Assembly (NCBI GenBank): GCA_003164135.1
Contig: PLSD01000125.1
Coordinates: forward strand, 1-64,000
From: Acetobacteraceae bacterium
GTDB lineage: Bacteria; Pseudomonadota; Alphaproteobacteria; Acetobacterales; Acetobacteraceae
Length of the DNA stretch: 64,000 nucleotides
Direction: 5' to 3'
Under the pieces are notes generated by a model. That model made no database searches, was not told the origin of the DNA, and saw nothing but the letters and a program-made list of their open reading frames with translations. Position 1 is the stretch's first letter; each line of letters starts with the position of its first letter. Both the position numbers and the translations under genes were made by a program. Shown in pieces: positions 1,447 through 27,674 of the stretch.

Positions 1447-1947
1447 GATGTCGGTGATAGCCGGCTGATTTTTACCAAGGCTGGGGACATCTGGTGCTGG
1501 GGACCTCGCGCCGAAATCGAGAAAGTCTTCGCCGACAATCTGAACGAAATCGTAACGCAAGCTCTACCTCGCGACATCAACGCCCCAGGCAGCCTTCACG
1601 TTAAAGGATTTCTGGAAGAGGCTTTGGTTCTGGCCTTGGTAAGAGGTCGCCCTCTTTTGGCACATAGTCGCTACTCATCTTCCATTCTGATTGCCGACGG
1701 CCACTCCGTGGACCAATCTTCGCTTGATCCTATCTTCAGGTTTGTCGGCACGCTACGCTACATTATTACTGACGAGTTAGGCCGGGGCCCTCCACGGGGC
1801 TTAGGCAGTAATAGGCTCTTGATCGACAGTATAATTTGTCTGGTAGCGGATAAATGTATATGCCGGTTTACTAGCCGGGCCGAATTAGAGCCAACGAATA
1901 AGAGTTCGCGGGAATCCGCTTGCATGAGGGAAAGAGGGAGTACATGA
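1447..1947 (+). pseudogene. Possible decayed hypothetical coding remnant
   Basis: The gap between the toxin and the epimerase holds one frame, open from 1447, whose first 110 codons or so look protein-like (balanced composition, for example IEKVFADNLNEIVTQALP). It has no credible start codon, ribosome binding site or recognised domain, and its last 40 codons lose protein character. It is best read as a fragment of an unknown gene, or as chance. The stop at 1945-1947 overlaps the next gene's start. Confidence 0.25.
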
Positions 1948-2855
1948 AAGTTTACATTCTTGGTGCCACAGGCTTTATCGGTGGCAATGTCGGTGCGCAT
2001 CTTGTCCGCTCTGGCCATGAAGTCAGCGGCATGGCCCGCTCGGCGGCGGCCGCCGCCAAGTTGCAGGCGGCCGGCATCAAACCGATCCTCGGCGATTTGG
2101 AAAGCGATCTTGCAGGTGCCGTGGATGCTGCGGCGCAAGCGGATGTAACGATTTTCGCGCCGCAACTGCTCCTGGAGCAGGAACAGGTGGCCGTCAAAGC
2201 GTTTTTCGACAGGTTTGAGGGCAGCGGCAAAACATTCATCTTCACCTCCGGGACCGGCGTGCTTGGCCAGCGCACGGCGGGATTTTGGAGCCCGGATAGT
2301 TTCGCGGAGCAGGACGCGTTCACCCCGGCACGTTCCCTGGTGCAACGCGTTGAAACGGAAAATTTTGTACGCGCGGCGACCACGCGCGGCATTCGCGGCA
2401 TCGTGGTTCGGCCCCCCATGATCTGGGGGCCAGGAGACCACGGCCATATGTCCATGATCTACGAATCCGTCGCCAAGACTGGGGCAGCTTGTTATGTCGG
2501 CCCTGGCCTTAATTGCTATACCAATGTGCATATTGACGATCTGGGCCGCCTGTATGGGCTTGTGGTCGAGAAGGGCACCGGCGGGGCGCTCTACCATGCC
2601 GTGGCCGGGGAGATTGCCAACCGCTGGATTGCCGAGCGCGTGGCGCAGGATTTGGGTTGCCCGACGCGCAGCTTGAGTGTGGAAGAGGCATTCGAGGTCT
2701 GGGGTAAGTTTGCGACGTTGATTGTGATGGGCGCTTCCAGCCGCTCGCGCAGCCCGCGCTCGCGCGATGAATTGGGCTGGGTGCCGGTGCACACCGACCT
2801 GCTGAGCCAGATTGGCGAGGAGCGGCTGCGGGCGCTGGCCAAGCAGCCTGGCTGA
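1944..2855 (+). CDS. NAD(P)-dependent epimerase/dehydratase (extended SDR)
   Basis: A 303-residue extended short-chain dehydrogenase. The Rossmann start MKVYILGATGFIGGNVGAHL has the G-x-x-G-x-x-G dinucleotide motif at residues 7-13. The rest has the atypical-SDR look of sugar epimerases and NmrA/cinnamoyl-reductase relatives. I do not see a clear YxxxK, so catalysis is uncertain. The ATG at 1944 is preceded by GGGAAAGAGGGAG, a good ribosome binding site. It stands alone, left of the IS630 element. Related epimerase-like genes recur at 22002, 23979 and 27674 in the sulfotransferase modules, so it may be an outlying member of the same pathway. Substrate unknown. Confidence 0.75.
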   Translation: MKVYILGATGFIGGNVGAHLVRSGHEVSGMARSAAAAAKLQAAGIKPILGDLESDLAGAVDAAAQADVTIFAPQLLLEQEQVAVKAFFDRFEGSGKTFIFTSGTGVLGQRTAGFWSPDSFAEQDAFTPARSLVQRVETENFVRAATTRGIRGIVVRPPMIWGPGDHGHMSMIYESVAKTGAACYVGPGLNCYTNVHIDDLGRLYGLVVEKGTGGALYHAVAGEIANRWIAERVAQDLGCPTRSLSVEEAFEVWGKFATLIVMGASSRSRSPRSRDELGWVPVHTDLLSQIGEERLRALAKQPG

Positions 2856-3333: not shown

Positions 3334-4503
3334 CGGTTTGCTCTCAACCCCAGGGGAGCTTCTGATGAACATACGGTATCGCGTCGAGCTGAGCCAAGAG
3401 GAACGCGACCAGCTCACCGCGTTTTTGAGCGGGGGCAAGCACCCGGCCCGCAAGGTCAAGCGCGCGCAGATTTTGCTGGCCGCTGACGCGGGTGTTGGCG
3501 ACCAGGTGATCGCCGCCAGTGTGTCGGTCGGCGAGTCCACCGTGTACCGCACCAAGCGCCGCTTTGTGGAAGGCAACCTCGAGCTTGCGCTGGCGGAGGA
3601 GGCGCGTCCGGGTGCGGCGCGCAAGCTAACCGGCCGGGAAGAAGCCCTGCTGGTGGCAACAGCCTGTTCAAATCCGCCCCTGGGGCGGGCGCGGTGGACG
3701 CTGGATTTGTTGGCGGGCGAGATGATCAAGCTGACCGAGCATGCGGCGGTCTCACGCGAGACGGTGCGCCGGCGCTTGGGCGAAAACAAATTGCAGCCGT
3801 GGCAGAAGGACATGTGGTGCATCCCGAAAGTGGATGGCGCCTACGTCGCCCGCATGGAAGATGTGCTCGACCTCTATTCGCAATATCCCGATCCGAAATT
3901 TCCCGTCGTGTGTTTCGATGAGAGCCCGACGCAGTTGATCGGCGAGGTCCGCGAGCCGATCCCGGCCGCACCCGGGCAGCCGGCAAGGTACGATTACGAA
4001 TACCGGCGCAATGGCACGGCGAACTTGTTTGTGTTTCTCGACGCCCACAAATCCTGGCGCCACGTGAAAGTCACCGAGCATCGCGCCGCCGCCGACTTTG
4101 CGCATTGCATGCGCGATCTGGTTGATATCCACTACCCAGATGCCGATCTCATTCGCGTCGTGCTGGACAATTTATCGACCCATACGGCGGGCGCGCTCTA
4201 TGAAACCTTTCCGGCACCCGAGGCGCACCGGGTACTCCAGCGGCTGGAGTTCCATTATACGCCCAAGCATGCCAGCTGGCTGAATATGGTTGAAATCGAA
4301 ATCGGCGTGCTACGCAGCCAATGCCTGGATCGCCGGATCGGCGAGCGTAAACGTCTCGACAAAGAAATAAAAGCGTGGGAAAAGCAGCGAAATGAAAGTG
4401 GCGCACGCGTGAAATGGATGTTCACCACAGAACGCGCGCGAGTGAAACTCGCCCGCGCCTATCCGCACGCCGCCAAAGAGTCAAAACCACTGTGACGAGG
4501 TAC
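3022..4503. mobile_element. IS630-family insertion sequence, apparently intact
   Basis: A 1482-bp element bounded by perfect 24-bp inverted repeats (3022-3045, starting GTACCTCGTCACAG, and its complement at 4480-4503). A duplicated TA dinucleotide flanks it (3020-3021 and 4504-4505), with C on the left and G on the right. The original target was therefore CTAG, the site favoured by IS630-type elements. It holds a full-length DDE transposase on the plus strand and a small antisense gene. Perfect ends and an undamaged transposase suggest a recent insertion. A poly-C run follows the right flank. Confidence 0.93.
3365..4495 (+). CDS. IS630-family DDE transposase
   Basis: A 376-residue transposase. 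The N-terminal third holds the helix-turn-helix ([20 protein letters not shown]). The DDE catalytic set appears as [14 protein letters not shown] and the glutamate in [13 protein letters not shown], in the order and spacing expected for IS630/Tc1-mariner enzymes. The ATG at 3365 follows GGGGAGCTTCTG. A start at 3338 would add nine residues without a better site. The stop at 4493-4495 lies inside the right inverted repeat. No frameshift is seen, so the gene is probably functional. Confidence 0.92.
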
Positions 4504-4761: not shown

Positions 4762-5811
4762 CTACACCATTTTGGCGCCCGGCAGTGAACGCTCAATCAT
4801 GCCGTATGTTACTTCGCCATCCCATTCATAGCGTACGCCGCCTTGATGAAATGGCAGACCAACCAACACTGGCTGTCCAGCCTGCGTCCAGTTACCAAAC
4901 ATCGGGTTATTCTCGCGAATACAGGTGGAATCATGGGTGCGGCCGCTGATCCGAACCGGCTGTCCTGCAACTTCAAGCACGATATCCACTGGCCCGTCAT
5001 GCGGGACAAACTGGTTCATCCATGGCGCTTCAACCACCTTGGCATAGTGTTTTTGCTTGCCGTCATAAATATATGCCTCGCCAAACGAGGGCGTTCCGTC
5101 TTTGCGTGGCGGAAAGCCCATCAATCCAAACGCCTTGCCGCTCGGAAACACCGCCGATTGCCAGCAGTGGCCGGGGAATTCGCCAATATCCCGTGCACCA
5201 GAGCGGCGAACGAACAGGCCGGAGCCGGTAAATTTAAGCGGCGCTTCGCCGGCGATATGAAAGCTGCCTGTGCAACGGAATAGCTGCTCGTGGCGATGCC
5301 CTCCCACCGCGCCCACCGCTTGCACGGTTGCCGCGTCGCGCGCCTGCTCGCCAGGACTCCAGGCCGGCACTACCATTGTCGCTTCAACCTCGATACGCAC
5401 GTCGCGCGGCGTGCCGGTGGTGACGCCTTGGGCCTGTTGTTGAACCGTGGTTTCATAGGTTTGGCCATCGAAAACCAGCGCCCAGCGTTTTAGAGGCTCC
5501 CGCACCTCAAAAGTCAGCGGTCCAGCATTGAGCGTGACGGCGTTGCCGTCGACGAATTTAACCGGAGCCGGCGCGTAGCCACCGGATCCGATCAAGACAC
5601 GGCCGTCGGGGAAAGCGATATTGGCTTCGACACCGCGATTATCCCATTCGCTCGAAACCGCCTCGATGGTCAGACGAGGGAAACCAAATCGCCCTTTGTC
5701 ATCCGAGATCCACATAGACGCGCTGTCGCGCATTAGCGGATTATCGGGCTTTTCACCAAGAAAGAACTCATGGGCCGGATCGTAGCCGCTGGACAAATCT
5801 TGTTCACTCAT
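4762..5811 (-). CDS. AttH/DUF7064-like beta-barrel protein (copy 1)
   Basis: A 349-residue protein without signal peptide, rich in beta-prone glycine and aromatic residues. It is related in length and layout to the product at 8245-9291: both end with a Y/F-x-W-DGE-x-x-(Y/F)GM-x-E motif (YEWDGEVTYGMIERS here). I read it as a member of the AttH-like, lipocalin-type family annotated as DUF7064/7065, which often sits in gene clusters for terpenoid or steroid-like compounds. Such folds bind hydrophobic ligands or act as isomerases or hydratases, but the role here is unknown. It is the last member of the leftward operon, after a 275-bp gap behind the SDR gene. Confidence 0.65.
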   Translation of the reverse strand: MSEQDLSSGYDPAHEFFLGEKPDNPLMRDSASMWISDDKGRFGFPRLTIEAVSSEWDNRGVEANIAFPDGRVLIGSGGYAPAPVKFVDGNAVTLNAGPLTFEVREPLKRWALVFDGQTYETTVQQQAQGVTTGTPRDVRIEVEATMVVPAWSPGEQARDAATVQAVGAVGGHRHEQLFRCTGSFHIAGEAPLKFTGSGLFVRRSGARDIGEFPGHCWQSAVFPSGKAFGLMGFPPRKDGTPSFGEAYIYDGKQKHYAKVVEAPWMNQFVPHDGPVDIVLEVAGQPVRISGRTHDSTCIRENNPMFGNWTQAGQPVLVGLPFHQGGVRYEWDGEVTYGMIERSLPGAKMV

Positions 5812-6086: not shown

Positions 6087-7037
6087 TCAAATGATGATAT
6101 CCAGCGCAGCCAATATATCCGTTGACCGTTCCCACAACATGTACGCTGCCAGTTCTTCGGTGACGCTGGCATCGAACCCCGTCCATGGATGCGTCTCGGG
6201 CCCAACAGGCAAGGCCAACGCGCAATCTTCCAGAACCAGCCCCCCGCGCGATTCAAGCTCCGGCGCCGTTGCTGCCCAGATAGTCGTCGCGGCTCCCTGC
6301 TCAACGGTTTTCATCGCCGGGTTCGGCTTGCCCTGTTCGTCAAAGAAGCCAATCAGCCGTTTCAGCTCATCACCATGATAGCGTTGCAACCCGGTCAATA
6401 CCGAACCTGGCAAGACCGCATTGGCGAAAATGCCGTCGGACGACCAACGCTTGGTGGCTTCCATTGCGAACAGAATATTCGCAGTTTTAGATTCGCCATA
6501 TGCCATCAGATCGTCTCGCGGACGGCTCTGCCATTGCATATCATCAAAATGCAACGGCCGACCTTTATGCGCGGCAGAACTCAGCACAACAACCCTAGCG
6601 CCATTCAAGGCAAGTTTGCGGAACAGGAGGTTCGCCAGCAAGAAGTGCCCTAGATGGTTGGTGGCAAAACGAACATCCAGACCATCAGCGGTATGGGCAT
6701 CCAGCGTCTTGGAAACCCCCGCATTCGCCACCAGAATACCGAGCGCCTCCGGGCGGTCAGTCACGGTTTGCGCGAAGCTGACCACCGAAGAGGGGTTACT
6801 GAGATCGAGCACGCCGACAAGCACCTGCCGCCCTGTTTCAGCACAGATCTTGTTGGCCATGAGACGTCCGGCATCCCGGTCGCGCACACCCAGAATCAAG
6901 TCCGCGCCGGCCGCTGCCAAGGCATGAGCGGTCGCCACACCAAGCCCAGAGGTTGCACCGGTGACAAGGGCCGTGCGGCCCCTGAGGTCGGCTTGTGCGG
7001 CAACCTGCATGGCGGTGGAATGGCGATCAAAACCCAT
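6087..7037 (-). CDS. SDR oxidoreductase, retinol/WW-oxidoreductase-like
   Basis: A 316-residue short-chain dehydrogenase. It has the cofactor motif TGATSGLG near residue 27, VANAGV, the serine of VVLSSAAHKG and the catalytic YGESK (YxxxK). The VRFATNHLGHFLLANLL segment is characteristic of retinol-dehydrogenase and WW-domain-oxidoreductase relatives, which oxidise or reduce hydrophobic alcohols with NADP(H). It lies 10 bp downstream of the sulfotransferase gene in the same leftward operon, so it likely acts on the same hydrophobic hydroxylated substrate. Substrate not inferable from sequence. Confidence 0.85.
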   Translation of the reverse strand: MGFDRHSTAMQVAAQADLRGRTALVTGATSGLGVATAHALAAAGADLILGVRDRDAGRLMANKICAETGRQVLVGVLDLSNPSSVVSFAQTVTDRPEALGILVANAGVSKTLDAHTADGLDVRFATNHLGHFLLANLLFRKLALNGARVVVLSSAAHKGRPLHFDDMQWQSRPRDDLMAYGESKTANILFAMEATKRWSSDGIFANAVLPGSVLTGLQRYHGDELKRLIGFFDEQGKPNPAMKTVEQGAATTIWAATAPELESRGGLVLEDCALALPVGPETHPWTGFDASVTEELAAYMLWERSTDILAALDIII

Positions 7038-7047
7038 GGCGTTTGTC

Positions 7048-8211
7048 CTATCTCGCCGGTTCGGACAGCAGATGCCCGAACCGCTCGCGATACTCGGGCA
7101 TCAGACCCTTCAGGGTGGCCTGATCGAGACCGAAATCCTCGGCGTTGTACTTATGCTCGCCATGCTTGCCTTGCGGATTATGGGCGATATGCTCTTCGAT
7201 ACGGTGGCCATGTTCGGCGCTGAACTCAAAGCCAAAATGGTCGTGAATCCGTTTAACGGTGCCAACAGGATCGAGGACCGTGTCGCGATAGGCGATATCG
7301 AGCACACGGCTGTCGACCGCAGGATCGCGCCGGGCGATCGTGCCGCGTTCAAGATGGGCACCAAATAATTTCAGCGCCTCCCGTCCTGCTTCTTTCTTTG
7401 ATAAATCTGGTTTGAGCATCGTCTGGATGGTCCAGACGAGGCTCGCGTTCGAGGGTAGTGTGCGTGCCGGGTCGCGATGGGTCTGCACGATACATGCATC
7501 AGGATAGATTTTAATTAATTGGTCAAGATTGAGCAGATGCATGGGCTCTTTCAAAATCCAGCGACCTTTCGGCCCCTTCCACTGAAGCTGCTGCAGCGCC
7601 CTGTTATGGCTGCGATAGATGCCGTCAGGATGGGCGGTCGCGAGCCAATGGGCATATTGCGGGACGTAGATACTCGCAAAAAACCGCGTGCAGTAAAGGC
7701 TGAACGCGAAGAAGCTCAAGCAATCCGCAGGCAGTGTTGCGCCCCAGGGGTGCATGGTGCGCAGCACCGGCATGGCCTCCAGCATGGCGTCGATCCCCGC
7801 CTGGGTTTGCGCAATCCTCGGGTCCGTGGTGTAGGTGGCGGCCTCCGGCGCCGGCCAGGGGATGGCAGACTCCCATTCCTGCGGCGCGCGGCCAGCCGGA
7901 TCGAGCGCGCAAAGATCGTGAAGGATGGTCGTCCCGGTCCGCGGCAGCCCCGTGAGGATCAGCGGCCGGACGATTTTCTGTTCGGTGATTTCAGGGTGCA
8001 GCTTTTCATCCTCGACGAAATGCAGGCGGATCGCGAGCTGCGTGAGGATCTGGTCCTGTAGCGAGGCTGCCCCGGCTTCCGAGAGTTGCGCGGCAACGGC
8101 TGCGCTCACAAGTTCGCCAAGCCCAATGCGGAAGGCCTGATCGGTTCCCCAATCCGATAACCCGGTTTGCGCTTCAGCGGCGCTTAGGAGTGTCTCTACA
8201 TCTAACATCAT
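7048..8211 (-). CDS. PAPS-dependent sulfotransferase family protein (copy 1)
   Basis: A 387-residue Sulfotransfer_3-type protein. The 5'-phosphosulfate-binding loop LPRTGTT is at residues 89-95 and the 3'-phosphate-binding region is seen as QTHRDPARTLPSNASL. An HPWGATLP segment and the HNPQGKHGEHKY tail are typical of the long bacterial members. These enzymes move sulfate from PAPS to an alcohol or phenol. It sits between an AttH-like gene (33 bp upstream) and an SDR. The PAPS-making operon cysDNC/cysQ lies about 3 kb away behind a matching TetR operator, which supports a genuine sulfotransferase function. A second family member is at 26505. Confidence 0.87.
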   Translation of the reverse strand: MMLDVETLLSAAEAQTGLSDWGTDQAFRIGLGELVSAAVAAQLSEAGAASLQDQILTQLAIRLHFVEDEKLHPEITEQKIVRPLILTGLPRTGTTILHDLCALDPAGRAPQEWESAIPWPAPEAATYTTDPRIAQTQAGIDAMLEAMPVLRTMHPWGATLPADCLSFFAFSLYCTRFFASIYVPQYAHWLATAHPDGIYRSHNRALQQLQWKGPKGRWILKEPMHLLNLDQLIKIYPDACIVQTHRDPARTLPSNASLVWTIQTMLKPDLSKKEAGREALKLFGAHLERGTIARRDPAVDSRVLDIAYRDTVLDPVGTVKRIHDHFGFEFSAEHGHRIEEHIAHNPQGKHGEHKYNAEDFGLDQATLKGLMPEYRERFGHLLSEPAR

Positions 8212-8244: not shown

Positions 8245-9291
8245 CTAACCAGAAAGCTCACACATGCCGAAGCCTTCCTCGCCATCCCAGATGAAGCGCG
8301 AGCAAGACTGGCTCATTATTTTCGCAGCTTCCTGGACCAGACCGTGACCAGCGGCGAACGCCCCGGTGCCTGCGGCTTTGCGCTGGACAGACGGCGCCGG
8401 CCCGCCCCAATCGCCAAGCGGAATCCAGGTTGTGTGGAAATTCATGCCCTCGATACGCGCCGTACGATTGCCCGCCTGTAATTCAACGGAGAATCCATGC
8501 TCATTGGAATCACGCGAGAATTTCGGGGAGTTTATGATCTCTGCACGGAGAATTCGGCCATCCTCTGCGAGATAAGCCTCACTGAAATAGGGCGTTCCAT
8601 CCAGGGTGAAAAGCTGCTTCAGACCAAATCCCCGCCCACCTGGAAACTGCCCAGTCACCCAGGCGTGAGAGCCCATGCCGGTGGTATCGCGCGGTCCGCG
8701 CACATGACCGCGCAAGCCGACGCCAGAGAACGCATAAGATTCTCCAGCGGCCGATATTGTTCCTTCGCCGCGGATAATCTGCTCATACTTACCAAGAAAA
8801 ATTCCATCTGCCGTCCGTGGCGGCCCGACCAAGCTTTGCGGCCCGGTTGAGAGTGGAATCAACCAGGGCTCAGTAAGCGTTTGAGCCTTAACCTCAACAA
8901 CCACTTCAGCCGTGGGGCCGGTGGTAACCGAACCCTGCGCTTCCTGCTCCTGCGTCAGCGTTATCGCTTCGGCATTCCACCGATACTCCCAGTTTTCATA
9001 CGGTTTGACACAACGGTAACGCAGACTGCGGCCACCCGGCTCGGCACCATTTTCATAACGTCCCTCAGAATGGGTGATGAACCGCCGGCCATCGGGGAAA
9101 AACAGCGTTGCACGTTCCCGGGCGATGCCATCACGGACATAATAAAGATGTAAATTGAAGCCGATCCGGCGCGGTCCATCAACCAGCCAGACATTGAATG
9201 TTTCATAGGTCAACGGGTCCGCTGGCCCATGCACGAGCGCCTGATCCAGGCTGGGATTAAGGCCACCACTACGATCGATTGAGACTGTCAT
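8245..9291 (-). CDS. AttH/DUF7064-like beta-barrel protein (copy 2)
   Basis: A 348-residue paralogue of the 4762-5811 product, with the same closing motif (FIWDGEEGFGMCELSG) and many Gly/Trp turns. I chose ATG 9291 because GGAGGG lies just upstream and the SMP-30 stop codon is one base away (stop 9293-9295). The longer open frame to 9561 runs inside the SMP-30 gene and has no start signal. Tight packing with the SMP-30 and sulfotransferase genes marks one transcription unit. Ligand binding or isomerase-type chemistry on a hydrophobic substrate is possible but unproven. Confidence 0.68.
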   Translation of the reverse strand: MTVSIDRSGGLNPSLDQALVHGPADPLTYETFNVWLVDGPRRIGFNLHLYYVRDGIARERATLFFPDGRRFITHSEGRYENGAEPGGRSLRYRCVKPYENWEYRWNAEAITLTQEQEAQGSVTTGPTAEVVVEVKAQTLTEPWLIPLSTGPQSLVGPPRTADGIFLGKYEQIIRGEGTISAAGESYAFSGVGLRGHVRGPRDTTGMGSHAWVTGQFPGGRGFGLKQLFTLDGTPYFSEAYLAEDGRILRAEIINSPKFSRDSNEHGFSVELQAGNRTARIEGMNFHTTWIPLGDWGGPAPSVQRKAAGTGAFAAGHGLVQEAAKIMSQSCSRFIWDGEEGFGMCELSG

Positions 9292-9292
9292 G

Positions 9293-10231
9293 CTAATGCC
9301 CTCCACAAACGGGGCTAGGGCCGGCCCACTTTTCCTGAAAAGCCAGTGCCAGACCTGGCGCATCCCATGTCGCCGTGAAAACAACGCCGCAATGCAGGCC
9401 GGTGATGTATGCGGTCCGCATATCGGCACCGCCAAAACAGATATTCGAAGGATCGCCGGGGACGGTTGGAATACGTTCGGCGGTGCCGTCCGGCGCGACG
9501 CGCAGGATGAGATTATTTCCTGGGCAGGCCACGCAAACCTTGCCATCCGCCTGAACGGCAAGCGAGTCCATCAGTAAACTAGCATCGCCGAACAGAAGTG
9601 CAGATGCCTGCATCGCGTTTGTGATCTTTCCAGGTTCCGTCAGAGAGAAACACCAAACTCGGCCAGAATGGGTCTCCGAGACATACAACTTGGTTCCATC
9701 CGGGCTGAGACCAACCCCATTGGGGCGCTCCAACGGCGGCGTGACGGCGTGCAACCCCGTGCCATCGGCTTGTGCGTAATACACCTGGCCCATTTGCGGC
9801 GCTGCCCTACGAAGAGAGCCAAAATCGGAGAAATAAAAGCCGCCAAATCCATCGAAGACCAGATCATTGGGAGCAACCAGCGGAACGCCATCACATTGAT
9901 TATACAGCATTTTAACCTCGCCTGTTTCGAGGTTCACCGTCTCAATTCGGCCTAAGCCGGGATCGATAGCATCGCCATCCTCGCCTTCACGCAAGCGGGC
10001 GATATCATCGGCGTCCAGGCCACCGTTATTACAAATGTAGCAAAGATTGTTTGGTCCAAAGGCAAGACCATTCGGACCTCCGCCAATCTGCCGCGTCGAA
10101 ATGACAGCCCCTGCAGCACTGAGATGGGTCATTTGCCCAGCAAGCACCTGGACACAAAGCAGGCTCCCATCACCCCGCACCACCGGCCCCTCGCTGAAAG
10201 GCAATCCAATGGCAAGAATGTCAAACTGCAC
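9293..10231 (-). CDS. SMP-30/gluconolactonase-like beta-propeller
   Basis: A 312-residue SMP-30/LRE-family protein, which are calcium- or zinc-dependent lactone hydrolases with a six-bladed propeller. Metal-site residues expected for the family are present: Glu14 in the FSEGP motif, the Asn of PNDLVFD, the Asn of RPNGVGLSPDG and the Asp of LMDSLAVQADG. It is the first gene of the leftward operon, 171 bp from the divergent TetR start, and a TetR-type inverted repeat lies in that gap. It could open a lactone made by the upstream oxidation steps. No signal peptide is seen, so it is probably cytoplasmic. Confidence 0.88.
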   Translation of the reverse strand: MQFDILAIGLPFSEGPVVRGDGSLLCVQVLAGQMTHLSAAGAVISTRQIGGGPNGLAFGPNNLCYICNNGGLDADDIARLREGEDGDAIDPGLGRIETVNLETGEVKMLYNQCDGVPLVAPNDLVFDGFGGFYFSDFGSLRRAAPQMGQVYYAQADGTGLHAVTPPLERPNGVGLSPDGTKLYVSETHSGRVWCFSLTEPGKITNAMQASALLFGDASLLMDSLAVQADGKVCVACPGNNLILRVAPDGTAERIPTVPGDPSNICFGGADMRTAYITGLHCGVVFTATWDAPGLALAFQEKWAGPSPVCGGH

Positions 10232-10343
10232 GGCAACATTGGCGCCGAGACCGCCATGTAAGCTTCAACTGTATCACTTCGCCTGTCCTCCGTCGCCGAT
10301 TATACTGCGATCAAGTCTGGATATTATGCAGAGTATCGGAAAA

Positions 10344-10361
10344 TTTGACCGATAAGTCAAC
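10344..10361. promoter_or_regulatory. TetR-type operator A1 (TTTGAC-N6-GTCAA)
   Basis: An inverted repeat, TTTGAC, six bases, GTCAAC, lying between the divergent SMP-30 operon and tetR gene. The same arms and six-base spacing recur at 11093-11110, before cysD. Placement and spacing suit a TetR dimer, so it likely lets the adjacent TetR control its own gene and the sulfotransferase operon. Confidence 0.65.
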
Positions 10362-10402
10362 GCCTGTCTGGACATTCAACGCAAAATACGGATGATCCAA
10401 AT

Positions 10403-11101
10403 ATGGCCAGCAAACCATCCACACCCAACCGGATCATTGAAGCCGCCACCGCCTTATTTTGGCGTAGTGGCTATCACGCGGTATCCGTGGACGCCATCTG
10501 TGGTGCCGCTCTCGTCCAGAAGGGCAGCCTCTACCACGCCTTTGGATCAAAAGCTGATCTGCTTACGGTTGTCATTCAGCAGATATGGGAGAGGGATCGC
10601 GGGGAGATCGAAAAGATCTATCTCACGGACGACCCATTACTGGAAAAACTCCGTAATCATTTGGAATGGTTTGGTATTTCTCAGCGGCGGCTAAAGGCAC
10701 GTTATGGCTTTGTGCCCGGCACGTTCGAAATCGTCATTGATACGAATATTCCCGAAAAAGCACAGGAATTCATGTCCGCGGCCAGTCATGACGCCATAGG
10801 TATCATGCGCGACACGATCAATACCTTACTTGCGCCAAGGCGACTAAACGCCGAGACCGTGGAATGGATTACGACGGTGATCAGACAGCTCGTCAGGGGG
10901 GCTTTGATCGAGGCGCGTCTAGGCAATTCGCTGACGCCGCTCGATGCGTTGCCTGAATCGGCTCTGGCGTTGATTGGCCTGGCACCGCCGCCGATCGTTG
11001 GTGTCAATCGGGAAGTTATGTTTCCGATAGGGTTAGGGGCTATCGAAACCGGGCTCCGCGAGATGCAGCGTAAAGAGCGTGACACAATGGGGTTTGACTA
11101 A
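10403..11101 (+). CDS. TetR/AcrR-family repressor (module I)
   Basis: A 232-residue TetR-type regulator. The N-terminal helix-turn-helix is clear (RIIEAATALFWRSGYHAVSV, then CGAALVQKGSLYHAFGSKADL). The C-terminal two-thirds is the usual all-helical ligand pocket. It is divergent from the SMP-30/sulfotransferase operon, and TTTGAC-N6-GTCAA repeats lie 42 bp before its start and across its own stop codon. A ligand from the operon's pathway is the likely inducer. The downstream operator suggests it also controls the cysDNCQ operon. Confidence 0.9.
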   Translation: MASKPSTPNRIIEAATALFWRSGYHAVSVDAICGAALVQKGSLYHAFGSKADLLTVVIQQIWERDRGEIEKIYLTDDPLLEKLRNHLEWFGISQRRLKARYGFVPGTFEIVIDTNIPEKAQEFMSAASHDAIGIMRDTINTLLAPRRLNAETVEWITTVIRQLVRGALIEARLGNSLTPLDALPESALALIGLAPPPIVGVNREVMFPIGLGAIETGLREMQRKERDTMGFD

Positions 11102-11110
11102 ATAGTCAAA
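11093..11110. promoter_or_regulatory. TetR-type operator A2, before cysD
   Basis: A perfect inverted repeat with 8-bp arms (TTTGACTA, 2 bp, TAGTCAAA) overlapping the tetR stop codon, 68 bp upstream of the cysD start. Viewed as TTTGAC-N6-GTCAAA it matches operator A1 in arms and spacing. It could act as the operator of a cysD promoter. Its overlap with the end of a coding region means the palindrome also constrains the last codons (Phe-Asp-stop). Confidence 0.65.
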
Positions 11111-11177: not shown

Positions 11178-12113
11178 TTGCGCCATCAACGTGATCAAGA
11201 TTTACTATCAAACGCTCCAACTCTGACCCACCTGCAGCGTTTGGAGGCTGAGTCGATTCACATTATGCGCGAGGTTGTGGCGGAGACGGAGAAACCGGTG
11301 ATGCTGTACTCCGTGGGCAAGGACTCGGCGGTGATGCTGCATCTGGCGCGCAAGGCGTTCTACCCCAGCCCGCCGCCGTTCCCGCTGCTGCATGTGGACA
11401 CGACCTGGAAGTTCCGCGCCATGTACGAGCTGCGCGACCGCATGGCGCGTGAGAGCGGCATGGAGCTGCTGGTGTACCACAACCCGGAAGCCGCCGCGCG
11501 CGGCATCAACCCGTTCGAGCATGGCGGCCTGCACACGGATATGTGGAAGACCGAAGGGCTGAAGCAGGCGCTCGACAAATACGGCTTCGACGCCGCTTTC
11601 GGCGGAGCGCGGCGCGACGAGGAAAAATCCCGCGCCAAGGAGCGGATTTTTTCCTTCCGCTCGGCCAACCACCGCTGGGACCCCAAGCAGCAACGCCCGG
11701 AATTGTGGAACCTCTACAACGCCCGCAAAGCCAAGGGGGAGAGCATCCGCGTCTTCCCCATTTCCAACTGGACCGAACTGGACATCTGGCAATACATCCA
11801 CCTGGAAAATATCCCCATCGTGCCGTTGTACTTCGCCGCCAAGCGCCCCACCGTGACGCGCGACGGCCTTATCCTTATGGTCGATGACGACCGCTTCCAA
11901 TTCCGCCCCGGCGAGAAGGTGGAGGAACGCTCCATCCGCTTCCGCACGCTGGGCTGCTATCCGCTCACCGGCGCAGTTGAATCCGAAGCCACCACCCTGC
12001 CGGAAGTGATTCAAGAAATGCTGCTCACCACCACCTCGGAACGCCAGGGCCGCGCCATCGACCACGACCAGGCGGCAAGCATGGAAAAGAAAAAGCAGGA
12101 GGGGTATTTCTAA
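11178..12113 (+). CDS. cysD: Sulfate adenylyltransferase subunit 2
   Basis: A 311-residue CysD, the PP-loop ATP sulfurylase subunit that forms adenosine phosphosulfate with CysN. The ATP-binding motif [17 protein letters not shown] is at about residues 46-62, followed by [29 protein letters not shown] and LGCYPLTGA, all typical. I start at TTG 11178 because AAGGGGAG lies about ten bases upstream and the segment [16 protein letters not shown], normal for CysD, follows. The next internal Met would cut into it. The stop overlaps cysNC by one base. It lies behind operator A2, so PAPS supply appears tied to the neighbouring sulfotransferase module rather than to cysteine need. Confidence 0.95.
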
Positions 12114-14023
12114 TGTCCGAAACCAAGGAAAGCTCCTACGTCACCGAGGCGCTGATAGCCGAGGATATCGACGCCTATCTGGAGAAACACCAGCACAAAT
12201 CCCTGCTGCGCTTCATCACCTGCGGCTCGGTCGATGACGGCAAATCCACCCTCATCGGGCGGTTGCTTTATGACTCGAAGATGATCTTCGAAGACCAGCT
12301 CGCTGCCCTCGAAGCGGACAGCAAGCGCGTCGGCACCCAGGGGCAGAATATCGACTTCGCCCTGCTGGTCGACGGCCTTGCCGCTGAGCGCGAACAAGGC
12401 ATCACCATCGACGTCGCCTACCGCTTTTTTGCCACGGAAAAACGCAAATTCATCGTCGCCGATACGCCCGGTCATGAGCAATACACCCGCAACATGGTCA
12501 CTGGCGCCTCCACGGCAGATCTCGCGGTGATCCTCATCGATGCGCGCAAAGGCGTACTGACCCAGACCCGCCGCCACAGCTACCTCGCCAACCTCATCGG
12601 CATCAAAAACATCGTGCTGGCGGTGAACAAGATGGACCTGATCGGCTACGACCAGGCGAAATATGAAGCCATCGTCGCCGACTACGCCAAATTCGCTGCC
12701 GAAATCGGCATCGCGTCCTTCACCCCCATGCCGATCTCCGGCTTCATGGGCGACAACATCACCACCCAATCGCCGAACATGCCCTGGTACAAGGGCGTGC
12801 CGCTGATCGAATTCCTCGAAACCGTCGAGCTAAACGTCACCGCCGATCAGGACAAACCCTTCCGCCTGCCGGTGCAATGGGTCAACCGCCCGAACCTCGA
12901 CTTCCGCGGCTTCTCCGGCCTCATCGCCAGCGGCACGGTGAAGCCCGGCGACGCGATCCGCGTGCTGCCTTCGGGCAAAACCAGCACCGTCACGCGCATT
13001 GTCACACTGGGCGACGATTTGCCCCAGGCCGTCGCCGGGCAGTCGATCACGCTCACCCTCGCCGATGAAATCGACTGCTCTCGCGGTGATGTCATCACGG
13101 CCGCCGAATCCCCCGTGCAAGTGGCCGACCAGTTCGAGACCACCATCGTCTGGATGGCCGACGAGCCCCTGGTCCCCGGCCGGCCCTATTGGTTGAAACT
13201 CGGCACCCAGACCGTCACCGCCACCATCCACACACCCAAATACCAGGTGAACGTCAACACGCTGGAGCATGTTGCGGTCAAAACGCTGGAGTTGAACGCC
13301 ATTGGCGTCACCAACCTCAATCTTGACCGTCCCATCCCCTTTGAGTCCTACGCGCAGAACCGCACGCTCGGCGGCTTCATCCTCATCGACAAGTTGACCA
13401 ACGCCACGGTCGGTGCCGGGATCATCCACTTCTCGCTGCGCCGCGCGCAAAACGTGCACTGGCAGGCGCTGGACATCAGCCGCGACACCCATGCGTCCTT
13501 GAAAAACCAGAAGCCCGCCGTGCTGTGGTTCACCGGCCTTTCGGGCGCCGGTAAATCCACCATCGCCAATCTGGTGGAGAAGAAGCTGGTGCGGATGAAT
13601 CGCCACACCTTCCTGCTCGATGGCGACAACGTCCGCCATGGCCTGAACAAAGACCTCGGCTTCACCCAGGCTGACCGGGTGGAAAATATCCGCCGCGTCG
13701 GCGAGGTTGCCAAGCTGATGACCGACGCCGGGCTTATCGTCATCACCGCCTTCATCAGCCCCTTCCAGGCCGAGCGGCAGATGGTGCGCGACATGATGGC
13801 CCCCGGCGAGTTCATCGAAATCCACATCGACACGCCCCTGGCCGAAGCCGAGGCGCGCGACGTGAAGGGGCTGTACAAAAAAGCCCGCGCCGGAGAGCTG
13901 AAAAATTTTACAGGTATCGACAGCCCCTATGAGCCGCCCGATAGCCCGGAAATCCGCATCGACACTGCGAAGCTGACCCCGGAGCAGGCGGCTGATTTCA
14001 TCATTGAAAGACTGATTCCGTGA
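12113..14023 (+). CDS. cysNC: Bifunctional ATP sulfurylase GTPase / APS kinase
   Basis: A 636-residue fusion. Residues about 30-450 are CysN, the GTPase that drives APS synthesis: P-loop [29 protein letters not shown] and NKMDLIG. From about residue 465 the CysC kinase follows, with its own P-loop [12 protein letters not shown] near residue 475 and the [15 protein letters not shown] segment. It makes PAPS from APS. Fused CysNC is common in proteobacteria. No assimilatory PAPS reductase or sulfite reductase is next to it, which fits a role in sulfate donation. Overlaps cysD by one base and cysQ by four. Confidence 0.96.
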
Positions 14024-14748
14024 ACGACCTCGAACTGGCGAAACATATAGCGGAGACGTCGGGCAAGCTGCTGCTGACCCTCCAGGATTCGGGGCTGTTC
14101 TCGGAGAAGGCGTTGGGAAAGGCGGGGGATCGTGTAGCCAACGCCTTCATCATGGAAGCGCTGACGGAGCAGCGGCCCGAGGACGCGATCCTCTCTGAGG
14201 AGGAGAAGGATAATGCCGAGCGCTTAAGCGCCGGGCGCGTGTGGATTGTCGATCCTCTTGATGGCACGCGGGAATATGGCGAACGGCGGACGGACTGGGC
14301 GGTGCATATCGTGCTCTCGATTGGTGGCAAGCCGGAGATTGGCGCCGTGGCGCTGCCGGGTTTGGGGCTTGTGCTCGCTTCTGAGCCGCAGGCACTGCCG
14401 GACGTGGCGCCCAAGCTGCGCATGCTGGTGAGCCGCACGCGCCCGGCGAAAGAGGCTTTGGCCGTGGCCAAGGCGCTGGATGCCGAGCTCGTGCCGATGG
14501 GCTCGGCGGGGGCGAAAGCCATGGCGGTGCTGCGCGGCGAGGCGGATATTTATCTGCACACCGGCGGGCAATATGAATGGGACAACTGCGCCCCCGCCGC
14601 CGTGGCTTTGGCCGCCGGCCTGCACGCCACCCGCGCAGATGGCACCGAGCTTGTTTACAACAACGAGAATCCGTATCTGCCGGACCTGCTGATCTGCCAA
14701 AAAGACCTCGCACCAAAAGTGCTGAAGGCGCTAGCGGCGGTAGAGTAG
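14020..14748 (+). CDS. cysQ: 3'(2'),5'-bisphosphate nucleotidase
   Basis: A 242-residue inositol-monophosphatase-fold enzyme that removes the 3'-phosphate from PAP, the inhibitory by-product of sulfotransferases. Metal-site signatures are present: [24 protein letters not shown] and, near the end, [19 protein letters not shown]. It starts at GTG 14020, whose GTGA overlaps the cysNC stop. Together cysD, cysNC and cysQ give PAPS synthesis and PAP recycling, the set needed to run a sulfotransferase. The downstream gap shows no obvious terminator. Confidence 0.94.
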
Positions 14749-15569: not shown

Positions 15570-16061
15570 GAATTTACCCCCCGAAATGTAGCATAATGGA
15601 AAGCAACGGATGGATGCATAAATACTGTCCCCAGTTGCATCGTTTTTTAGTGTCCGCTACGTCACCCGCCGCTGTGAGCAATACTAGTTTTTTACCAGAA
15701 ATATGTAAATTCTATTTTAAAGGCCCCGAGGTCTAACGCTGGCTCTTGACCCACGATGAACTGTTGAGAGAACAGAAATGCAGCCTAAACTACGTTGGCC
15801 GGTTCGCTAAAATTTTTTACGTTGTCTTCTTTCAGTGCATGAGCTGAATTCTTCAGCTTTACGAGCAAGCGTTGTCGTGGACAAAAGCAGCAACGAAACC
15901 TTCTGTTTGGACCCATGTCGGTCAAACAGGCAAAACTTGTCCAACAAATCTTCTAGACCCAATGTCCGCTGAGTGAACGGCGGCCCCGCCCTTGGCATGT
16001 ACAATGTCGAGGGTTGTGCCGGATGGCCGGCACAAAGCCTCATACATGGAGGGCGGACCTA
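15570..16061. other. Noncoding region upstream of the IS110 remnant
   Basis: About 490 bp of AT-richer sequence without a credible gene. Its right part directly precedes the IS110-type transposase start. In IS110-group elements this left noncoding end encodes the bridge RNA that pairs with target and donor DNA, so a remnant of such an RNA could lie within about 15830-16061. No element boundary could be fixed by eye. Confidence 0.35.
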
Positions 16062-16559
16062 ATGGACAATATCACGTTTGTTGGATTGGATGTGCATGAG
16101 GCGACGGTATGCGTGGCGGTGGCTGATAGCGCCCGTGACGGCGAGGTGCGACAGGTAGGTGTCTTTGAGAACCGGCCGGATGTTTTGAGTAGAATGGTGA
16201 CATGGCTTGGCAAGAATAGTCGGCGGCTCAGTTTTTGTTACGAAGAAGGTCCATGTGGCTATGGTCTGCACCGACAGTTAACCGGTGCCGGACATGAGTG
16301 CGTTGTGGTTGCGCCATCGTTGATCCCGATCAAGGCGGGCGACCGGGTAAAGACGGATCGCCGCGATGCGATGATGCTTGCGAAGCTGCATCGGGCTGCC
16401 GAATTGACCGCCATCTGGGTTCCCGATCAGGCACACGAGGCAATGCGCGATCTGGTGCGGGCACGCGCGGCGGCGGTCCGCGTGCTGGGCAAAGCGCGGC
16501 AGCATCTACAAGGTTTTTTGCTTCGCCATGAGCGGGTTTATCACGGGCCTCGCGCCTGA
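16062..16559 (+). pseudogene. IS110-family transposase, C-terminally truncated
   Basis: A 165-residue protein corresponding to the N-terminal RuvC-like DEDD domain of IS110 recombinases: GLDVHEATVCVAV (first Asp), YEEGPCGYGLHR (Glu) and KTDRRDAMMLAKL (paired Asp). Full-length relatives are about 330-400 residues and carry a C-terminal Tnp domain with a catalytic Ser. Here the frame stops at 16557-16559 just after RHERVYHG, and no C-terminal half follows. The start ATG 16062 has GGAGGGCGGACCTA upstream. Probably an inactive relic, although the DEDD set is intact. Confidence 0.85.
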
Positions 16560-22001: not shown

Positions 22002-22928
22002 ATGCTACAGGGAAATAAAATCCTTTTAACCGGCCTGACAGGCCGTATCGGTGGCGCCGCAGCCGTTGCGCTCGCGCCTTCGAACGAAGTCTGGGGCTTG
22101 GCGCGCTATACCAAGGAGGGCACGCGCGAGGCCGCCGAAAAACTCGGTGTCATACCCGTTGTCGGCGATTTTGCCCGCGGGTCGCTCGATGCCGTCCCGC
22201 GTGATTTTGACTATATCGTGCATATTGCTGCCAACGTCTCTCCGCGATCTGCCGAGGAAGGGATGCTGGATAATTCAGATGGAGCCGCGCGGCTGATGAG
22301 TCACTGCCATACTGCAAAGGCGTTCCTTCACGTGTCGGCGAGTAGTGTCTACGCGCAAAATGCGGACCCATACCATACGTACCCTGAGGACTCCGATCTC
22401 GGCGGCAGCTATGGCGGCCAATATTCACCGACTAAAGTAGCTGCCGAAGGTGCAGTGCGCGCGGCGGCGCTAATCCTGAATCTGCCTACGGCGATTTGCC
22501 GGCAGAACGTCCAGTATGGCGGCCTCACCGGTGAACCGGGTCTGATTGACCGTTTCCTCGATGTTTTTGTCGAAACGGGCGAGGTCTATTTGCCGCCGAC
22601 CGGGCCCATGGTCATCGGGCCGATTCATGAGGATGACATCGTCGATCTGATAGAGCCAAGCCTCAAAGCTGCCTCGGTTCCGGCTTTTATCGTCAACTGG
22701 GGTGGGGACGAGCGGGTTGATTGGCAGGAACTTTTTGAATATGTCGGCTTTCTGATTGATAAAACACCAAAATTTATTCGTAAACCTGAGTTTGCGTTTC
22801 CAAATTATTTTCCAGACCCAACAAAGCGCCGGGCCATGGCGGGGCCATGTAAGATTGACTGGAAAACAGGTATCCGCCGCACCCTGCAACTTCGCTTTCC
22901 AGATATGGCCTTGAAGCACGTCGATTGA
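22002..22928 (+). CDS. NAD-dependent epimerase/dehydratase-like (extended SDR)
   Basis: A 308-residue extended SDR. The Rossmann start NKILLTGLTGRIGGAAAVAL has the GxxGxxG motif at residues 11-17, HIAANVSP corresponds to the HxAA motif, and YSPTK is the catalytic YxxxK. It is paralogous with the products at 23979 and 27674: all share E(V/I)(W/Y)GLAR(Y/F) after beta-2 and an RR(R/A)(S/M)-x-GPC-x-(I/V) block near the end. These look like reductases or dehydrogenases of hydroxy-ketone or sugar-like groups. Substrate unknown. Confidence 0.82.
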   Translation: MLQGNKILLTGLTGRIGGAAAVALAPSNEVWGLARYTKEGTREAAEKLGVIPVVGDFARGSLDAVPRDFDYIVHIAANVSPRSAEEGMLDNSDGAARLMSHCHTAKAFLHVSASSVYAQNADPYHTYPEDSDLGGSYGGQYSPTKVAAEGAVRAAALILNLPTAICRQNVQYGGLTGEPGLIDRFLDVFVETGEVYLPPTGPMVIGPIHEDDIVDLIEPSLKAASVPAFIVNWGGDERVDWQELFEYVGFLIDKTPKFIRKPEFAFPNYFPDPTKRRAMAGPCKIDWKTGIRRTLQLRFPDMALKHVD

Positions 22929-25062: not shown

Positions 25063-25707
25063 TTAGTCCTCTGCTTGCGGAGAAATAAACAACGGCCGCG
25101 TCAATAGATCGATCCCCGCTTCCAAAAACCGGTGGTATACGGCGGGATCATCGAGGTCGAGATCGCTGGTGCCTTCGAGCAAGGGTCGCAAAAGCATCGG
25201 CGCGGCGGTAATCGCATGGTAAAGCAGCAGGCCGATTTCCGGATCGGGAAGCGGGCGAGCTATGCCGGCGGCAATGAGTTGCTGCATCTGGTCGCGCTGC
25301 ATAGCACCCATCGCGTGGAAAACCCGTGCCGCCGGAAGCCCGCCGACAAAATAAACATGACGCAGATAAGCTGCGATCGCCGGATTGTTGCGCATAAATG
25401 ATTCGGTGGCAGCGCGCCTCGCCCGCATCGCATCTAGTGTGGGCAGGTCAAGCCCGACACCGGTGATGGCATCGCTCATCCGCGAAAGCACGGACTCCAG
25501 CACCGCCTGCTCCAGTGCGTCCTTCGACTTATAATGATGCAATATCGCGCCCGTCGACACACCTGCGGAAGCCGCAACCATACGGATGGAGGTGGCAGCG
25601 GGTCCATTTTCGGCAAAAAGGCGCAAGGCGATCTCGCGGATACGCACTGCCGGCGCAAGGTCATCGAGGCCGACATTGAAGCTTGCTTCGGATTGATTGT
25701 CGCGCAT
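25063..25707 (-). CDS. TetR/AcrR-family repressor (module III)
   Basis: A 214-residue TetR-type regulator with the helix-turn-helix in IREIALRLFAENGPAATSIR and VAASAGVSTGAILHHYKSKD. ATG 25707 has AAAGGAGAGCG directly upstream; the longer frame to 25746 lacks such a site. It is the last gene in the leftward group (epimerase, sulfotransferase, SnoaL, SDR remnant, tetR). Operators C1 and C2, upstream of the two outward units of this module, are its likely targets, because each of the other two TetR genes already has its own distinct operator pair. Confidence 0.88.
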   Translation of the reverse strand: MRDNQSEASFNVGLDDLAPAVRIREIALRLFAENGPAATSIRMVAASAGVSTGAILHHYKSKDALEQAVLESVLSRMSDAITGVGLDLPTLDAMRARRAATESFMRNNPAIAAYLRHVYFVGGLPAARVFHAMGAMQRDQMQQLIAAGIARPLPDPEIGLLLYHAITAAPMLLRPLLEGTSDLDLDDPAVYHRFLEAGIDLLTRPLFISPQAED

Positions 25708-26013: not shown

Positions 26014-26508
26014 TCATTCGGTCGTTGGCGCAAGCTTGTGAAGCTGTAGGCCAAATATATGCACCTCCCGCTCGCGTAAGCGCCAGATATGGTCCTCCTC
26101 TGCCCAAAGGTCATAATATTTTCCGTAGCCGCGCATCTCCGTGGCGCCAGTCTCCGACAGATGCACATAGGTGGCGTAACACCAGCTGCGGATCATCCCC
26201 TCCGGTGCAGTTTCCAGCAGCGATGTCCCGATGACGTGGATCATCGAGCCGGGCCGCCAGGCGTGGTCTTGATTCCAGCCTTTAACCATCATCGCGATAA
26301 CCTCGGCGCGGCCAGCCAGCCGCCCCAGTTCTTTCAACCCGTCCTGCTTGAGCAGCAGCACACAATCGCGTGCATAAATATTGTAAAGCACACCTTCATT
26401 ATGCGTGTCGACCGCCCATTTTTGGCGCGCCAACTGGGCGCGGACATGGTCGAACGGGCTCATCACCAAGCCCCCGCTTGGCGTGCCGCGATTGGGTGGA
26501 TTTGTCAT
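26014..26508 (-). CDS. SnoaL-like protein (module III)
   Basis: A 164-residue paralogue of the 18145-18621 product, sharing RAQLARQKWAVD near residue 25, C(Y)ATYVH in the middle and WRLREREVHIFGL at the end. Its ATG overlaps the sulfotransferase stop by four bases (ATGA), so it is translationally coupled to that gene. The pairing of this subfamily with a P450 in one module and with a sulfotransferase in the other suggests it acts on the common scaffold of the pathway, possibly as an isomerase or dehydratase. Mechanistic residues could not be assigned. Confidence 0.8.
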   Translation of the reverse strand: MTNPPNRGTPSGGLVMSPFDHVRAQLARQKWAVDTHNEGVLYNIYARDCVLLLKQDGLKELGRLAGRAEVIAMMVKGWNQDHAWRPGSMIHVIGTSLLETAPEGMIRSWCYATYVHLSETGATEMRGYGKYYDLWAEEDHIWRLREREVHIFGLQLHKLAPTTE

Positions 26509-27674
26509 GCTCCAGCTCCGCGCTTGTGATCCGGCTCAACGCCGAATCGCTTGATATAAAAGCCGAACCGGTCCCGCAGCCGTTCAGTGTTGAGACCATA
26601 TTGCTCCGGCGCATAATCATGCCGGCCGTGCTTATCCTGCGGATTATTGGTCTGAAAGGCGGCGACGCGGTCTAGATATTCACTGGTGAGCTGCATGCCG
26701 AAATGATGGTATATCGACGTCACGGCACCCACAGGGTCTGCCATCAGATCGTTATAGTGAAGATCGTAAAATCGGCTTTCGTCGGCCATACAGTCGCGCG
26801 CAGCCATCGCCCGCAACAGACCGATCTCTTCTAGGCTCGTCCATTCGGCACCGAACCGTGTGGGATCGTAAACCGGGCTTGTGAGCTTGCGAATTGAGCC
26901 GACGAAATTTGCAACAGATGGCAGAACCGTGCCCGGATCGCGATGGGTCCAGACGATGCGCGCGTCCGGATAGGTGGACAACAGCGCCTCCAACGAGAAA
27001 ACATGTTTCGGCCATTTCAGCACCCATTGCCCAGGGTTGCGCCATTGCAGATGTTGCAGCATGCGCCGGTGGTGCTCGTATGCGGTCCGGTGATCGGCGG
27101 CGAGGAACCATTCCAGATAGGCCGGCATGCGCTGCGGCGCTACCGCTGCGGCGTTCATAAAGCTCCAGTCGAGCAGCCCGATACATTGTTCCGGTCGCGT
27201 TGCGCCAAACGGATGGATTTTCATCAGCACGGCCGCGTTCGGGCGCGCATCCAGCTCCGTCTGAACCTTGGCGATGCGTGGATCGTTCGTAAAGCTGTCG
27301 TGCGATGGTGGCGGCGACGGTTCACTCATCTCCCATTGCAATGGCGTGCGAATTTGTGGACCGCCCGCCAGCAAGCCGTGGAGATGGGTCGAGCCGGTGC
27401 GCGGCAGACCGAGCACGATAATCGGCGCCGTGATTTTTTCCGCCATGATGGCAGGATAACGCTTGCGGTCCTCGACCAATCGTAACCGCTTGACCAGCAA
27501 CGCCTCGATGCCGCCCGTCAAATGTGGCAAGATCTCCGGGGCATGGCCGGATTCATGCTCCATACCCCAAAGCAATACCTCCAACCCTTCACGGAACGGC
27601 AAGTCACCAAAATCGGTCAAACCGGCCGCTTGCGCCGCCTGTTCAAGCAACCTGTCGACATCCAGCACAGCCAT
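26505..27674 (-). CDS. PAPS-dependent sulfotransferase family protein (copy 2)
   Basis: A 389-residue Sulfotransfer_3-type protein, homologous throughout to the 7048-8211 product. The phosphosulfate loop LPRTGST is at residues 90-96, VWTHRDPGTVLPSVANFVGS is the 3'-phosphate region, and the tail has the shared N-P-Q-(D/G)-KHG-x-H-x-Y block. ATG 27674 overlaps the epimerase stop (TGATG). Expected role: sulfation of a hydroxyl on a pathway intermediate using PAPS. It depends on the cysDNC/cysQ products encoded 12 kb to the left, unless another PAPS source exists. Confidence 0.87.
   Translation of the reverse strand: MAVLDVDRLLEQAAQAAGLTDFGDLPFREGLEVLLWGMEHESGHAPEILPHLTGGIEALLVKRLRLVEDRKRYPAIMAEKITAPIIVLGLPRTGSTHLHGLLAGGPQIRTPLQWEMSEPSPPPSHDSFTNDPRIAKVQTELDARPNAAVLMKIHPFGATRPEQCIGLLDWSFMNAAAVAPQRMPAYLEWFLAADHRTAYEHHRRMLQHLQWRNPGQWVLKWPKHVFSLEALLSTYPDARIVWTHRDPGTVLPSVANFVGSIRKLTSPVYDPTRFGAEWTSLEEIGLLRAMAARDCMADESRFYDLHYNDLMADPVGAVTSIYHHFGMQLTSEYLDRVAAFQTNNPQDKHGRHDYAPEQYGLNTERLRDRFGFYIKRFGVEPDHKRGAGA

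Follow-up and report, generated by a model that had tools for sequence, protein, structure and literature searches.

The sulfate-activation genes cysDNC are usually discussed as a sulfur-status gene set. Dedicated PAPS supply for a sulfotransferase is already known from the NodPQ-NodH system. S. meliloti carries duplicate ATP sulfurylase/APS kinase genes for Nod-factor sulfation by NodPQ/NodH, with other copies serving sulfur metabolism (PMC4053727), and in bacteroids cysteine synthesis may likewise draw on NodPQ for its first step (PMC6192434). Other accounts describe RaxP/RaxQ as supplying PAPS for RaxST (PMC4216712), a Cobetia capsule cluster that holds cysNC, cysD and cysQ (PMC11766843), and the V. 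vulnificus protein BrpT, an activator in biofilm/c-di-GMP control that drives cysDNC expression (PMC6113621).

The locus described here appears to share with NodPQ-NodH a duplicate of the PAPS-synthesis genes kept for one sulfotransferase pathway. The nodPQ genes are under NodD/nod-box control and belong to the Nod-factor pathway, whereas the cluster here probably forms a TetR regulon, includes cysQ and has no identified Nod-factor gene. The likeness to Cobetia is a PAPS-synthesis operon with cysQ inside the gene cluster for a sulfated product; the Cobetia cluster differs in its capsule export and glycosyltransferase genes and its sulfate permease, and the passages considered describe no operator link. 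The BrpT system likewise places cysDNC under a pathway regulator, but an activator, and the passages considered mention no second cysDNC set that is dedicated to, and lies beside, a sulfotransferase. A TetR regulon of this make-up appears to be new; we found no account of one among the titles and abstracts listed from the open-licence PMC literature.

Two palindromes on either side of tetR

The window is a 64-kb stretch of DNA, bases 1-64000 of a 79,254-bp contig from a 4.4-Mb assembly of 137 contigs with 5.4% contamination. Two divergent operons meet here at a tetR gene. Leftward lie genes for an SMP-30 protein, a 348-aa protein, a sulfotransferase of the Sulfotransfer_3 family and an SDR, and beyond a gap of 275 bp comes the gene for a second uncharacterised protein (4762-5811); rightward from tetR lie cysD, cysNC and cysQ. 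An epimerase-like gene is separated from the rest of the cluster by an IS630-type transposase frame (3338-4495). Homologs in the following list are those on L131, a 33-kb stretch of a Sphingomonas paeninsulae plasmid.

10344 to 10361, no strand: operator-like palindrome 1 (TTGAC-N6-GTCAA), TTTGACCGATAAGTCAAC, in the SMP-30/tetR gap
11093 to 11110, no strand: operator-like palindrome 2, TTTGACTAAATAGTCAAA, at the tetR/cysD junction
10403 to 11101, plus strand: tetR, 232 aa, putative repressor (PF00440, 2.7e-14, over cut-off; 48.5% to the S. paeninsulae TetR)
9293 to 10231, minus strand: SMP-30/gluconolactonase-family protein (SGL), first in the divergent operon (PF08450, 1.8e-39; 53% homolog)
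8245 to 9291 (start of span also given as 8248), minus strand: uncharacterised 348-aa protein (63% homolog)
7048 to 8211, minus strand: PAPS-type sulfotransferase, Sulfotransfer_3 (PF13469, 2.4e-34; 72% homolog)
6087 to 7037, minus strand: SDR oxidoreductase (PF00106; 57% homolog)
4762 to 5811, minus strand: uncharacterised 349-aa protein, paralog of 8245-9291 (about 25-31% identical; 58% homolog)
11178 to 12113, plus strand: cysD, ATP sulfurylase small subunit, with a mechanically called TTG start (NF009214/TIGR02039 over cut-off)
12113 to 14023, plus strand: cysNC, fusion of ATP sulfurylase GTPase subunit and APS kinase (NF004035 over cut-off)
14020 to 14748, plus strand: cysQ, probable PAP phosphatase of the inositol monophosphatase family (PF00459; 73% homolog, annotated CysQ)
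1920 to 2855, plus strand: NAD-dependent epimerase/dehydratase-like protein, outlying member of the shared cluster (55-56% homolog)

CysNC has its GTPase and P-loop motifs and is the sole APS kinase match in the bin. The sulfotransferase, with solved relatives 2zq5 and 2z6v, retains both the 5' and the 3' stretch that we presume to bind PAPS. The third gene of the rightward operon probably encodes CysQ: it scores below the curated cut-off (TIGR01331, 106.7 vs 228.8 bits) but this is still its best NCBIfam match, and relatives are annotated CysQ. The order cysD-cysNC-cysQ, with a cysQ homolog after cysNC, recurs in 12 of 17 same-genus loci; one other has cysQ first, two are cut and in two no cysQ was found.

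Several further features of the neighbourhood were recorded. Neither the 348-aa nor the 349-aa protein has a match in Pfam or NCBIfam at E<=0.001, and a predicted structure for the former (8248-9291), built from the two window paralogs, was set aside (mean pLDDT 39). Both paralogs are conserved with the sulfotransferase, and a plasmid of Mycolicibacterium madagascariense likewise has a distant relative close to a sulfotransferase gene. A second sulfotransferase-like protein (26505-27755) is 40% identical to the first, with several more elsewhere in the genome; the larger genus genomes G000, G009, G013, G015, G022, G029 and G033 have 6-9 sulfotransferase matches each. Transposase-like frames lie on both sides of the cluster (3338-4495, DDE_3/IS630 by Pfam; 16014-16559, IS110-like by eye), which is consistent with cluster mobility.

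The two palindromes are exact and rare. The initial annotation had reported two inverted repeats of the same arms and spacing, one in the tetR gap and one before cysD, and both are present exactly where it placed them. Site 1 lies in the 171-bp gap between the starts of SMP-30 (10231, minus strand) and tetR (10403). Site 2, 749 bp away on the other side of tetR, overlaps the final tetR codons (stop 11099-11101), its centre 76.5 bp 5' of the cysD start at 11178. The window contains no other exact occurrence of TTTGAC-N6-GTCAA. Allowing up to two mismatches yields 31 strand-matches (each palindrome counts twice), whereas 100 shuffles gave 12.2 on average and 27 at most. The genome-wide motif scan that the annotation had proposed places TTGAC-N6-GTCAA at seven positions in the 4,415,081-bp assembly (about 1 per 630 kb), two of them at this locus; the backwards pattern, used as a control, occurs at four.

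Repressor operators usually overlap promoters. Site 1 overlaps a minus-strand, sigma70-like match that would serve SMP-30 (TTGACT-17-GATACT, 10360..10332), and site 2 a promoter-like match on the plus strand (GTGACA-16-AATAGT, 11079-11106); three promoter-like matches were found vs 1.0 expected. Both overlaps are as repression would predict.

A second assembly of the locus, L068 (PMGP01000214.1), reproduces this junction together with identical copies of both sites, which makes an assembly slip unlikely. Its sulfotransferase frame is 14 aa shorter than that of the window. PMGP01000214.1 is titled Acidobacteriaceae, and a cluster in an acidobacterium was considered and rejected: the record is near-identical to the window until mid-cysN and then continues into an unrelated cysN. 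It is apparently chimeric from that point (12250-13503), joined in a conserved part of cysN.

A related cluster in Sphingomonas paeninsulae and the reach of the candidate operator

The closest plasmid-borne relative of the cluster combines the same functions in a different order. When the window sulfotransferase and TetR were used as tblastn queries against 72,556 plasmid records, the best match for both was the S. paeninsulae plasmid NZ_CP032828.1 (72.4% and 48.5%, respectively); the S. paeninsulae TetR itself has no other match at >=60% identity in these records. In L131, the order is epimerase, 4762-like gene, tetR, oxidoreductase, hypothetical, cysD, cysNC and cysQ, and beyond cysQ follow an SDR, the sulfotransferase, an 8248-like gene and SMP-30. 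Ten window genes have close homologs there (48-86%). The arrangement differs in that two genes separate tetR from cysD and the SMP-30 operon faces cysQ. The oxidoreductase corresponds to a window gene at 22002-22913 (72%), where we looked for an operator-type site and found none.

Operator-like sites accompany the S. paeninsulae genes. An identical 16-mer, TAGACCGATCAGTCAA, stands 5' of cysD (13791) and 5' of SMP-30 (21730), and related sites occur in the tetR gap (TTTACTGATCGGTCAA at 11459) and upstream of the oxidoreductase (TTGACTAATCAGTAAA at 12237). The centre of the cysD site is 77.5 bp 5' of the annotated start, vs 76.5 bp in the window. The total of L131 sites at up to two mismatches is not unusual (16, against a shuffle mean of 12.3; reached in 16 of 100 shuffles), and the evidence here is the placement and closeness of the sites. 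A degenerate pattern with up to one mismatch, written after the sites had been seen, matches four times in the S. paeninsulae genome, always in the cluster, and three times in the window's genome, twice at this locus; reversed as a control, it gives 1 and 0 matches. The third match in the window's genome (C3:11600) lies inside a coding frame, secF-like from its translation, and was taken as chance.

Cross-scanning, in which a matrix from the sites of one genome is applied to the other, is the fairer test. A matrix from the four S. paeninsulae sites gives its two highest scores in the 64 kb to the window sites (19.8 and 14.9), ahead of the next site at 12.1. In the converse scan of L131, with a matrix from the two window sites, the top three places go to the sites of SMP-30, cysD and the oxidoreductase, in that order; the tetR-gap site comes only fifth, outranked by a site before a TonB receptor gene. 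The S. paeninsulae site in the tetR/4762-like gap has no comparable counterpart in the window 5' of either the 4762-5811 gene or the epimerase gene.

Other features surround the plasmid cluster. Two slightly different palindromes, TAGACTATGTGGTCAA and TGGACCATGTGGTCAA (6289-6304 and 25275-25290), lie one about 84 bp 5' of a TonB receptor gene and the other about 200 bp 5' of an MFS gene; perhaps they are operators of a second TetR at 26894-27430. P450, GMC, MFS and TonB genes occur near the cluster, from which one might guess that the pathway substrate is a hydrophobic compound.

The candidate operator TTGAC-N6-GTCAA goes with this TetR subfamily. With the first few candidates scored per genome, 8 of 385 genomes of the class have a TetR match at E<=1e-10, the window's genome included (best other 8.8e-20). 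Six of eight distant TetR-relative loci, drawn from the seven other genomes, carry the palindrome 50-89 bp 5' of their own tetR, with starts picked mechanically, and for none of the six did any of 100 Markov-resampled sequences score as high. L126 carries a site identical in every letter to window site 2; L125 and L130 lack a site of this kind. The recognition-helix stretch KGSxYH is common to the window, S. paeninsulae and seven of the eight relatives. L125 reads KGAFYH; L130 has the KGSxYH stretch and lacks the palindrome. Among 29 loci of weaker TetR relatives, no top-scoring site has the form TTGAC-N6-GT[CA]AA; L007, L008 and L012 have strong palindromes, but with other half-sites. The palindrome-bearing loci L123, L124, L126, L127, L128 and L129 represent a same-class subfamily with a near-identical palindrome before its own gene.

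Operators of this form are also known from RutR-type TetR proteins, whose operator TTGACCAnnTGGTCAA is a palindrome of the TTGAC-N6-GTCAA form. The window TetR falls far below the RutR cut-off (26.9 vs 368 bits) and, unlike RutR, does not neighbour pyrimidine-use genes.

For the sulfotransferase, again with the first few candidates scored per genome, matches at E<=1e-90 occur in 10 of 397 genomes of the S. paeninsulae family, one at 72% (S. paeninsulae itself) and nine at 42-45%. In the family to which the window belongs, 2 of 397 genomes match, namely this one and G009 (41%).

These observations support the proposal of the initial annotation that cysDNCQ belongs to the same TetR regulon as the sulfotransferase operon. 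The operator before both cysD and SMP-30 in S. paeninsulae, and its recurrence at six of eight TetR relatives, are conserved shared sites that suggest common pathway control, and at the level of sequence the link holds. We assign a probability of roughly 0.8 to the following reading. TetR (10403-11101) would repress the SMP-30/sulfotransferase operon and cysD-cysNC-cysQ at the two putative operators, until released by an inducer that is probably a pathway compound. Extra PAPS would then be made as the sulfotransferase is made, and CysQ would clear the PAP by-product, as the enzyme families suggest. Judging from gene content, fully in S. paeninsulae and in part here, cysDNCQ would be an additional set dedicated to the pathway beside a housekeeping one.

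Other sulfate-activation genes and alternative explanations

The further copy beside the cluster-borne PAPS-synthesis set is complete in one host and partial in the other. The initial annotation had suggested a search for a second cysDNC copy. S. paeninsulae bears this out with a full chromosomal cysDNCQ that lacks the operator; elsewhere, the same chromosome has cysH and, from a reading of translations, cysI. In the window's genome only part of such a copy was recovered: another cysD on contig C67, 3' of fhs and an EAL-like gene, with the contig ending inside cysD. Neither a second APS kinase nor a C67 cysNC was found in the bin, and the 400 bp upstream of the C67 cysD contain no operator.

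It is unlikely that the window cysDNCQ is itself the housekeeping operon, upstream of which the tetR cluster was inserted by chance. Such a history would fit the window APS kinase being the only one in the bin and its sequence falling among the genus copies, and the C67 cysD could come from a contaminating relative, given the 5.4% contamination. However, that cysD sits in an fhs-linked context, as in G002, G011 and G023, where fhs is directly 5' of cysD, and C67 is probably native to this genome, its fhs being the only one in the bin. The S. paeninsulae cluster, moreover, also has its own cysDNCQ beside the chromosomal copy.

We find no TTGAC-N4-8-GTCAA within 400 bp upstream of cysD at 20 other loci, comprising 16 from other same-genus genomes, three from other families and C67 (L091 was omitted for too little upstream DNA). 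This bears on a second alternative, which we consider improbable: that site 2 is no operator and owes its resemblance to the -35 box (TTGACT) of a cysD promoter, leaving cysDNCQ under ordinary sulfur control. The core of site 2 does begin with TTGACT, and TATACG can be read directly at a 16-bp spacing, a pair not among the three promoter-like matches; both sites also overlap such matches on their respective strands, but this is usual for repressor operators. A -35 box leaves unexplained the second half-site at the same spacing, the genome-wide rarity of the motif and the same palindrome 5' of cysD in S. paeninsulae; at the 20 loci the motif is absent. Least probable is control of cysDNCQ solely by read-through from an autoregulated tetR promoter at site 1, with site 2 a passenger, since in spite of a tetR-cysD gap of only 76 bp and no plus-strand terminator-like site found, S. 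paeninsulae has two genes between tetR and cysD and yet a site directly 5' of cysD, at a nearly equal distance from its start.

One argument of the initial annotation, the lack of adjacent reductase genes, does not discriminate. In a survey of 31 stretches (28 with cysD; several cut by contig ends), we find no strong cysH or cysI match beside cysDNC. The absence of such neighbours therefore proves nothing, being the same in the relatives examined, and it was dropped as evidence. The sole strong match to either gene is the separate cysH of this genome on C45; weak matches in L091 and L092 fall on cysD itself.

Ancestry of the two cluster-borne operons

Neither of the two cluster-borne cysDNCQ sets has the other as its nearest relative. 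We built concatenated trees with 21 rows from protein and from codon positions 1+2, omitting G006, G011, G022, G032, G045, G048, G054 and C67 as distant or cut; L083 was omitted from the single-gene cysNC tree. Single-gene trees were inspected before the AU tests. Nine genus copies form a group with the window set (98/93 in the protein tree; 90/99 with codon positions 1+2). A branch of the DNA tree (98/97) separates the genus and the window from the Sphingomonadaceae side, where the S. paeninsulae plasmid set falls. The protein tree leaves this plasmid set without a resolved position at the base of the genus side, but placing it with Sphingomonadaceae is not rejected (p 0.42). Constraining the two cluster-borne sets to group with each other is disfavoured (AU p 0.022 protein, 0.0077 DNA), and so is a genus clade that excludes the window (p 0.040, DNA).

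Individual genes differ in what they show. The cysQ tree places the window inside the genus group (99/98). The cysNC tree also has the window in a genus group (97/95); sister to this group is the plasmid copy of S. paeninsulae, and the chromosomal copy of that species falls outside (100/99). The cysD tree does not resolve the window placement.

Because the cluster-borne sets are not closest relatives, this suggests that each cluster captured its own PAPS operon, or that an ancestral one was later replaced. Either way, the link between TetR and cysDNCQ would have been kept up. A bolder version, to which we give slightly less than even odds, is that a mobile TetR-sulfotransferase module took over a PAPS operon at least two times, from different sources and with the same operator each time.

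The cluster offers a case in which the coupling of cofactor supply to demand can be tested. A duplicate cysDNC is apparently controlled by a pathway repressor in step with a sulfotransferase, in different gene orders and in hosts that belong to two families. The palindrome provides a sequence-defined candidate operator for a TetR subfamily, and an inducer that is probably a pathway compound would give a handle on the sulfated compound. If repeated takeover is correct, PAPS supply would be a limiting and repeatedly selected part of the sulfation pathway.
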